A stretch of 64,000 nt of DNA. Source: Roseithermus sacchariphilus (GTDB lineage Bacteria > Bacteroidota > Rhodothermia > Rhodothermales > MEBIC09517). The first letter of the stretch is position 1, and each line of letters begins with the position of its first letter. The position numbers and the translations under genes are program-made. Positions 259-61,931 of the stretch are shown in pieces. The stretch lies in the NCBI GenBank assembly GCA_003285105.1, contig CP030158.1:62001-126000 (forward strand), given 5' to 3'. The notes under the pieces are model-generated. The model saw nothing but the letters and a program-made list of their open reading frames with translations. It was not told the origin of the DNA and made no database searches.

Positions 259-482
259 GCTGTGGGCTGCTCGCTGCTGGCTGCTCGCTGCTGGCTGCTC
301 GCTGCTGGCTGCTCGCTGACGGCTGCTCGCTGACGGCTGCTCGCTGACGGCTGCTCGCTGACGGCTGCTCGCTGACGGCTGCTCGCTGACGGCTGCTCGC
401 TGACGGCTGCTCGCTGACGGCTGCTCGCTGACGGCTGCTCGCTGACGGCTGACGGCTGACCGCTGATCGCTGACGGCTGCCT
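259..482. repeat. Heptanucleotide array, 32 copies of GCTGNNN
   Basis: From 259 to 482 the DNA reads as 32 uninterrupted 7-bp units. Every unit starts GCTG. The last three bases vary, mostly CTC alternating with CTG in the first part and CTC alternating with ACG in the rest. No unit breaks the register. The array lies between the partial gene at the left edge and the lipoprotein gene ending at 500. Similar units recur near 48.5 kb and 61.8 kb. Confidence 0.95.
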
Positions 483-36912: not shown

Positions 36913-38334
36913 ATGGTCAACCGACGGGAGACAGGACGGCGCCGGCATCCGGCCCGGTCCACCGGCCTGCGCGGGAGCCGGCTACGCGTGAGCCGGCTGC
37001 TCGCGGGCTGGTTGCTCGCGGGCTGGTTGCTCGCGGGCTGGTTGCTCGCGGGCTGGTTGCTGGTACCCGCCGCGGCCGCCCAGCTCCGGGCCGATGCCTT
37101 TCGGATGACGGCCCTCAGCCTGCGCGCCGAGGCGAGCACCGAGACGCGCCTGCACCTCTACACCCGGCTCCCCTACACGAGCCTGCGCTTCCTCACCACC
37201 GCCGACGGCTTTGCCGCCCGCTACGAGATGCTGGTGGAGGCCTACTCCGTCGACGACCGCAACCGCCGCCGGGACCTGGTGCAACGCCAGAGCTGGACGC
37301 ATACGGTTCGCGTCGCCAACTTCGCCGCCACACAGCTGGACCACCTCGCCCACCGCACCGCCCACACGCTGGCGCTGCCGCCCGGGCGCTACCTGCTGGA
37401 GTGCCAGGTCGAGGACCCGGCCACGAACCAGACGATCCGGCAGGAGATGATCGTGGACGTGCGGGACCTGAGCGGCCCGCTCGCGGTGAGCGATCTGATG
37501 GTGCTCGAGGACGTCAACCCGCAGGACGGCTCCTTCCAGCCGATGGCGGGCCACCACGTCGGTGCGGAGCAGTTGCACCTGACGCTCCGCTACGAGCTCT
37601 ACACGGACCGCACACGCGCCGTCCGCGCGGTGCTGGACGTCGTGCGCCCCCGGCGCGGGGGCGGCCTCCCGCTGGTCGGCTCGCTCTTCGGCCTCGGGCG
37701 GGACGACGAGTGGGTCGTCGACTATGCCAACACGCAGGCGCTGACGCTGCCGCCGGGACGCTCCGCGCAGATCGCAACCATCCCCCTGGAAAACCTGGAC
37801 GAAGGGTCGTACCTGATCCGCCTCCGCCTGGAGGACGAGCGCGGCACGGTCGTCGCCCGGGCCGAACGGCCGATCGTCGTGGAGCAGTGGCAGGGCCTGC
37901 ACACGCACATCCTGGACCTGGCTTCGGCCATCGACCAGCTGAAGTACATCGCCAAGGAGAGCGACCTGGCCTACATCCGGTCCGCCCCGACCGAGGAGGA
38001 ACGCCGCCGGCGCTTCGAGGCGTTCTGGCAGCGACGCGACCCCACGCCGGGCACCTCGCGCAACGAGCAGATGATGGAGTACTACTACCGCGTCGATTAT
38101 GCCAACCGGCGCTACGGCGGACGCGCCGCCGGCTGGCAGACCGACCGCGGCCAGGTGCTGGTGCTCTTCGGCCAACCCGACTACGTGGAGCAGTTCGACC
38201 GGGACGCCGACGGCCACCCGTACCAGGTCTGGCATTACCACCGCATCGGCCGCCGCTTCATCTTCATCGACCGCACCGGCCAGGGCGACTACCAGCTCCG
38301 CACGCCCCTCGACGACCGCATCCGCATCCGCTGA
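36913..38334 (+). CDS. GWxTD-domain secreted protein with repeat-built signal peptide
   Basis: This 473-residue protein starts at ATG 36913 with GGAGGT five bases upstream. The N-terminus is strongly basic (MVNRRETGRRRHP), then the hydrophobic core is four copies of LAGWL (residues 30-49), ending VPAAAAQ for signal cleavage. The C-terminal GWxTD domain includes GWQTDRGQVLVLFGQPDYVE (about residues 410-429) and VWHYHRIGRRFIFID. GWxTD proteins are common in Rhodothermota, Gemmatimonadota and relatives and have no known function. The long n-region could favour a Tat-like or slow export route, though there is no clear RR motif. Confidence 0.87.
   Translation: MVNRRETGRRRHPARSTGLRGSRLRVSRLLAGWLLAGWLLAGWLLAGWLLVPAAAAQLRADAFRMTALSLRAEASTETRLHLYTRLPYTSLRFLTTADGFAARYEMLVEAYSVDDRNRRRDLVQRQSWTHTVRVANFAATQLDHLAHRTAHTLALPPGRYLLECQVEDPATNQTIRQEMIVDVRDLSGPLAVSDLMVLEDVNPQDGSFQPMAGHHVGAEQLHLTLRYELYTDRTRAVRAVLDVVRPRRGGGLPLVGSLFGLGRDDEWVVDYANTQALTLPPGRSAQIATIPLENLDEGSYLIRLRLEDERGTVVARAERPIVVEQWQGLHTHILDLASAIDQLKYIAKESDLAYIRSAPTEEERRRRFEAFWQRRDPTPGTSRNEQMMEYYYRVDYANRRYGGRAAGWQTDRGQVLVLFGQPDYVEQFDRDADGHPYQVWHYHRIGRRFIFIDRTGQGDYQLRTPLDDRIRIR
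37000..37059 (+). repeat. 15-bp tandem array inside a signal peptide, 4 copies
   Basis: CTCGCGGGCTGGTTG is repeated four times without change at 37000-37014, 37015-37029, 37030-37044 and 37045-37059, in frame with the GWxTD gene (LAGWL each). Confidence 0.95.
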
Positions 38335-40177: not shown

Positions 40178-40249
40178 TTCCGGCGCTTCCGGCGCTTCCG
40201 GCGCTTCCGGCGCTTCCGGCGCTTCCGGCGCTTCCGGCGCTTCCGGCGC
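40178..40249. repeat. 9-bp tandem array TTCCGGCGC, 8 copies
   Basis: TTCCGGCGC is repeated eight times with no change from 40178 to 40249, directly after the terminator and nine bases before the amylase stop codon. Confidence 0.95.
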
Positions 40250-40258
40250 TTTCGCGTC

Positions 40259-48441: not shown

Positions 48442-48540
48442 GCTATGAGCTATGAGCTGTGAGCTGTGAGGTATCGGTGCTCCGAGGTCAACGATCGAAC
48501 CGACCGCTGACCGCTGATGGCTGACCACTGACGGCTGACC
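48442..48540. repeat. Heptamer cluster, GCTRTGA and GCTGACC types
   Basis: GCT(A/G)TGA occurs four times in register at 48442-48469. After a 36-bp spacer, five further units (GCTGACC, GCTGATG, GCTGACC, ACTGACG, GCTGACC) run from 48506 to 48540. The units are the same class as those at 259-482 and 61785-61931. It lies in the 181-bp gap before the secreted GH13 gene. Confidence 0.8.
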
Positions 48541-61784: not shown

Positions 61785-61931
61785 CAGCTTTCAGCCGTCA
61801 GCTTTCAGCCAGCAGCCCGCAGCCAGCAGCCCGTAGCCAGCAGCCCGTAGCCAACAGCCCGTAGCCAACAGCCCGTAGCCAACAGCCCGCAGCCAGTAGC
61901 CCGTAGCCAGCAGCCCGTAGCCAGCAGCCGC
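61785..61931. repeat. Heptanucleotide array, 21 copies of YAGCNNN
   Basis: Twenty-one uninterrupted 7-bp units run from 61785 to 61931. Each begins CAGC or TAGC, with CCG, CAG and CAA as common endings (CAGCCCG, TAGCCAA, CAGCCAG). On the opposite strand this is NNNGCTR, the same class as the arrays at 259-482 and 48.5 kb. It begins four bases after O2 and ends about 80 bp before the M24 peptidase start. Confidence 0.95.

Follow-up and report, generated by a model that had tools for sequence, protein, structure and literature searches.

Heptamer repeats described so far and the arrays of the window

Over-representation of heptamers among the simple repeats of bacteria has been on record since 2007, polymerase slippage was suggested as its cause, and there has been scarcely any detailed study (PMC4692102). 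Judged by sequence, the nearest described family to the arrays reported here is that of the TAACTGA direct repeats of Beggiatoaceae, cyanobacteria and some Bacteroidetes, which were proposed as regulatory sites upstream of start codons (PMC4679880). MacGregor found that single-base variants of TAACTGA are rarely repeated in the genome studied (PMC4679880), which suggests a separate heptamer dialect for each genome. Dispersed intergenic GGGNATC heptamers, located near stop codons and with a preference for four units, have been described from Xanthomonas and Nostoc (PMC4692102), and the heptanucleotide STRR repeats of cyanobacteria were reported for Calothrix, as cited in PMC4692102.

The window, i.e. 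the whole 64,000-bp stretch that was analysed, comprises bases 62001-126000 of a single-contig genome of 4.81 Mb, the sole member of its family in the collection searched. A first, sequence-only reading had counted 32, 9 and 21 seven-bp units in register at three loci and had all units begin with GCTG or GCTA, and both statements hold for the first and the third. Array 1 (259-479, plus strand), established by direct reading and by scripts, consists of 32 GCTR units in a 7-bp register without break, in which alternating GCTGCTC and GCTGCTG units give way to alternating GCTGCTC and GCTGACG units (a 14-bp period) and then to class B units (GCTGANN, see below) at the end. Two tandem copies of a 23-bp sequence, TTCATGAGAGGTTGACCGAATCG, lie immediately upstream of it at 178-223. 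Array 3 (61785-61928, minus strand) has 21 units, likewise in unbroken register, of which 17 class A units (GCTGCTG, GCTACGG and others) are followed by class B units (GCTGAAA, GCTGACG), and its neighbours are the genes of a LacI-type regulator and an M24 peptidase. The locus at 48442-48540 is not one array of nine units but is split into array 2a (48442-48466, plus strand), with two GCTATGA units and then GCTGTGA-type units, four GCTRTGA units in all, and, after a gap of ~36 bp, array 2b (48506-48540, plus strand), with about five class B units (GCTGACC, GCTGATG, GCTGACC, ACTGACG and GCTGACC), one of which thus begins with ACTG. The proteins of the two genes beside array 2 carry a type IX secretion tail, and one of them is also an alpha-amylase. 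All three loci are intergenic and both strands are represented, as had been read. RNA structure prediction for the window arrays gave z-scores of -0.98, -2.70, +1.70 and -2.78, which is not a consistent signal, and a search against Rfam models found nothing, either in the window or at three loci with E1 (see below) and arrays.

With TAACTGA repeats the arrays share the 7-bp unit, the intergenic position, a patchy occurrence across phyla and a position often flush with start codons. Read in another phase, TAACTGA becomes (ACTGATA)n, one base off GCTGATA, and ACTGATA units were found within the GCTGA arrays of an Acidobacteriaceae MAG. However, TAACTGA was described as one uniform word, whereas GCTGA arrays have a fixed core with two variable bases, those of the source genome falling into two ordered unit classes and those of phages forming inverted divergent pairs. 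The source-genome units are GCTNYKG and GCTGANN instead of TAACTGA, and they favour 3' gene ends rather than start codons, phage arrays standing at both ends. The GGGNATC heptamers resemble the arrays in their intergenic dispersal, their vicinity to stop codons and their preference for four units, but they have a G-tract core and form quadruplexes, whereas the present arrays have a GCTGA core and, for the most part, no quadruplex motif (four G-tracts in 9 of 83 arrays). STRR repeats share the 7-bp tandem unit, the dispersal through the genome and the intergenic placement, and in this general sense the source-genome arrays are dispersed tandem heptanucleotides as well. The units of STRR repeats are not known to be GCTR-based, and the resemblance is one of form and not evidence of kinship. 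REP/BIME and MITE elements are likewise extragenic, frequently beside stop codons, inverted, present in many copies and non-autonomous; unlike them, the arrays are built of 7-bp units, no two phage pairs are alike, no RAYT (Y1_Tnp) is found in the source genome and no target-site duplication was seen. Searching the literature with array strings returned primers and unrelated text only, and the open-access full text, to which the search was confined, held no paper describing GCTGANN arrays.

Arrays throughout the source genome

Searching the whole source genome for five GCTRNNN units gave 912 overlapping matches (375 forward, 537 reverse), whereas writing the pattern backwards gave 7 (5 and 2), and a chance origin of these runs is therefore excluded. 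The anatomy of arrays was studied in a 2.04-Mb sample, in which 83 arrays, defined as five or more GCT units, were present. The arrays thus belong to a genome-wide repeat family and are not products of local slippage, as had been proposed: there are far more than three copies, and relatives are not entirely without them, since five-unit matches occur in 13 of 60 genomes of the same order, mostly few, the majority having none.

The three bases behind the core had been thought to vary in an ordered way, and indeed this trimer is not free. Units fall into class A, GCTNYKG (GCTGCTG, GCTGTGG, GCTGCGG, GCTTCTG, GCTACGG and others), and class B, GCTGANN (GCTGACG, GCTGACC, GCTGAAA, GCTGATC and others), and in mixed arrays class A lies upstream of class B on the array strand in 53 of 54 cases (binomial p 6e-15). 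A search that presupposed no core found 100 intergenic tandem arrays with a period of 7, none with a period of 6 or 8 and four with a period of 9, besides two period-7 arrays inside genes. Another core-free search returned 122 longer intergenic period-7 arrays, in 85 of which the GGCTG frame holds the best-conserved triplet, and GCT-type cores account for the majority of period-7 arrays in the genome; in a test of column conservation at a 95% cut, array edges obscured the result. The source genome also contains intergenic arrays of heptamers whose cores are different (TCGARKG-type and CATTCCS-type), at G000:C1:947881-948050 and at 2567507, 230705 and 3884274, and therefore period 7 is not bound to a single core.

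On gene calls from a purpose-made codon-usage gene model, all 83 arrays of the sample are intergenic. Within 10 bp of a 3' gene end lie 58% of them, compared with 33% under random placement in the same gap, and within 10 bp of a 5' end 19%, compared with 19%. When the array length was subtracted from the gap, the remainder equalled the length of array-free gaps in all four gene orientations, thus arrays are DNA added to otherwise normal gaps. The flush placement at stop codons could be the work of purifying selection alone. Source-genome arrays have no replication-strand bias and no consistent orientation relative to genes, and they mostly run in one direction from A to B instead of forming inverted pairs. 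A second short element (about AGCTGCGCGACGAGCACCACCGTGTCAAGCCTGCCG) was observed between outward-facing class B arrays at G000:C1:572094-572350 and 576618-576720 (also loci L394 and L395).

Over the source genome as a whole, neighbouring units are identical at chance level, and short class B runs show a slight excess of adjacent-unit identity (0.304 versus 0.239 by chance). Moreover, the arrays have a strong 14-bp periodicity, and long ones alternate at periods of 14 and 21 bp. Because of this periodicity and the excess of identical neighbours in short class B runs, we conclude that duplication or slippage contributed in the source genome after the arrays had arrived.

Class B arrays in phages and across phyla

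Scanning viral contigs revealed dense carriers of arrays. The contig IMGVR_UViG_3300045936_000120 (34,160 bp; loci L272, L260 and L273) holds 66 arrays of at least two full units, situated at most gene junctions, and encodes head morphogenesis and protease proteins besides the terminase, portal, major head and tape-measure proteins by which it is a tailed phage. Near-identical contigs occur in two further metagenomes, and dense arrays are also present in the phage contigs L259/L326, L296 and L356, without detected similarity to it. At a typical junction, the stop codon is followed by AGC(NNTCAGC)2-5, a spacer frequently like TAAAMCGC, (GCTGANN)2-7 GCT and the start codon, and the array head often stands 0-5 bp upstream of the start codon. 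Neighbouring array pairs at viral loci are divergent in 72 cases and convergent in one (p 2e-20), four units is the commonest size of viral arrays, including those without G-tracts, and all 15 of the 15 phage pairs that were parsed differ from each other. Inverted pairs are predicted to fold as hairpins with periodic internal loops, at a mean of -34.9 kcal/mol. NN complementarity between the two arms was lower than in between-pair shuffles in four sets (P 0.024, 0.003, 0.010 and 0.005), and within-pair permutation ascribed this to a difference in composition and not to order; perfect hairpins were rejected, the arms avoiding complementary NN. Small extra ORFs lie between arrays in the relative L286, which, together with the presence of arrays at most gene junctions, suggests that phage arrays mark module boundaries.

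In the matching regions, between zero and four arrays are present in relatives of the phage whose DNA identity to it is about 70-87%. At least one relative lacked the array at 7 of 7 comparable clusters, and the array-bearing phage was longer by 50-133 bp at 6 of the 7; one array junction is an overlapping TAATG in a relative, and a 63-bp in-frame gain within the head-morphogenesis gene was verified by translation. Because several relatives are without arrays, sequence comparison leads us to read the phage arrays as gains and not losses, the alternative being loss in all relatives. Target-site duplication was not evident at the phage empty sites. In L286, the second array-bearing relative, the same junction likewise carries an array of four units, the cores being identical and the NN different. 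Among phage units standing between two intact units, 119 of 124 retain the core, and in 11 of 119 the NN is that of the neighbour; adjacent NN identity is 0.084 versus 0.128 expected (P of as few 0.04). Since the core is invariant and the NN of adjacent units coincide no more often than chance predicts, single-unit slippage cannot produce the phage arrays, and it is in phages that the earlier argument from a fixed core and a variable tail is strong.

A related pattern was matched, among the matches listed, in at least Acidobacteria, Armatimonadota, Bacteroidetes, Bipolaricaulota, Chloroflexi, Cyanobacteria, Deinococcus-Thermus, Firmicutes, Methylomirabilota, Nitrospirae, Omnitrophota, Planctomycetes, Poribacteria, Proteobacteria and others; on the same matches, the class B core GCTGA is patchily distributed in more than 12 phyla, and it is found in phages as well. 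The pattern had been designed for the A-then-B order, and the cross-phylum matches are mostly inverted class B pairs, (GCTNTCA)n-(GCTGANN)n, therefore the A-then-B order is claimed for the source genome only. Five or more tandem class B units were present in 24 of 30 such genomes, with up to 484 overlapping matches, and the reversed control was near zero in most of the 30, Moorena being the main exception. When genomes were drawn evenly from the phylum of the Acidobacteriaceae MAG (G429), class B arrays were found in 10 of 99 and the control in 1 of 99. Some foreign genomes hold uniform arrays, and class A arrays as a family are known here from the source genome alone.

Origin of the arrays

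In our judgement the case is evenly balanced that the arrays are non-autonomous insertions of core-site arrays, dispersed and non-coding like REP and MITE elements. The functional part would then be the fixed core, GCTGA in class B, recurring every 7 bp, and a core-recognising factor, either protein or nucleic acid, would select or write this core and bring the blocks in, which by analogy with REP and MITE elements may be carried by an enzyme encoded elsewhere. On our reading, phages acquired whole blocks at gene junctions with their NN already varied, each block comprising 2-5 units and in most cases forming one half of a divergent inverted pair with a short spacer in the middle. NN would be left free, its tendency to be non-repeating and non-complementary presumably protecting the blocks from deletion by slippage or palindrome cleavage. 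In the source genome, blocks would later have been lengthened via copying of 14- and 21-bp stretches, class A would later have become fixed upstream of class B, and some blocks may have travelled with E1. The phage anatomy applies to the source genome in part only, because arrays there are mostly one-directional and not inverted pairs. Two candidates for the enzyme were rejected: mobilisation by a REP/RAYT system, with 0 Y1_Tnp matches in the genome, and writing by a reverse transcriptase, with 0 RVT_1 matches, although diverged defence RTs may escape detection. The scanned phage proteins included no transposase or reverse transcriptase.

The arrays might instead be RNA or DNA binding sites that regulate the neighbouring gene, for example through a protein that reads GCUGA-NN repeats in the 5' leader. 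The constant core with its variable 2-nt linkers, the position of phage array heads just before start codons and the predicted hairpins of inverted pairs are consistent with this function. We nevertheless regard it as unlikely, since source-genome arrays abut 3' ends over 5' ends and have no consistent orientation to genes, phage relatives do without arrays, and one phage array lies in frame inside a gene.

Neutral tandem repeats could arise from chance seeds by polymerase slippage that prefers 7 nt, followed by homogenisation within the array; slippage with a 7-nt preference is the hypothesis of Mrazek (2007), as far as it is reported in PMC4692102. The alternation at 14 and 21 bp in long source-genome arrays means that block duplication certainly acts, period 7 is dominant in the source genome, and the uniform arrays of some foreign genomes agree with slippage too. 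However, independent seeds should give different cores, whereas GCT-type cores dominate and recur across phyla, the A-to-B polarity at 53 of 54 loci argues against such an origin, and the constant core with dissimilar neighbours contradicts it for phages; as a full explanation we find it quite improbable.

E1 is a 153-bp GC-rich and hairpin-rich repeat at 22 sampled loci in the source genome, with tandem copies at some of them (e.g. L389, G000:C1:1456800-1459200, and L392). At 17 of the 22 loci it adjoins an array, the strand is always shared and the order is array-E1-array, as would be expected if the arrays were passengers that spread with E1 only. Against this, 57 of the 83 arrays are without E1. 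Moreover, a genome from another family of the same order, G010, has at least 29 E1 matches, with identity of at most 91% across most of the element, and has no GCTR arrays; the sites examined there (L376-L388) are mostly framed by terminal inverted repeats, ACTGATGTTACGC...GCGTAACATCAGT, and are MITE-like, whereas the frame of E1 in the source genome is formed by heptamer arrays. Hence E1 and arrays are separable, and the passenger explanation, contradicted as a full account, is very improbable. It is barely credible that the arrays are G-quadruplex repeats resembling GGGNATC: where class A units end in GG, a GGG recurs at 7-bp intervals (cf. PMC4692102), and the four-unit preference is common to GCTGA arrays and GGGNATC, but the canonical motif is confined to the nine arrays mentioned above, it is absent from class B, and arrays without any G-tracts also have four units as their mode.

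Returning to the insertion of core-site arrays, we tentatively suggest that bacteria and phages might share an undescribed DNA-writing or DNA-moving activity. It would deposit blocks of roughly four heptamers at the borders of genes, in most cases two divergent blocks with a short spacer between them, and every heptamer would have GCTGA as its constant core and a dinucleotide that is left unspecified. TAACTGA repeats, and perhaps further families of heptamers, would then be dialects of this activity. The phage family, in which empty and filled sites exist side by side and cores are invariant while linkers vary independently, turns the origin of such repeats into a question open to testing, namely which factor reads GCTGA at 7-bp intervals and which one inserts the blocks. 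A writer, if found, would represent a new class of genome-modifying activity across many phyla and their phages.

The window also contains two perfect tandem repeats of other periods, one of 15 bp (TGCTCGCGGGCTGGT) in 4 copies at 36998-37061 and one of 9 bp (TTCCGGCGC) in 8 copies at 40178-40251.
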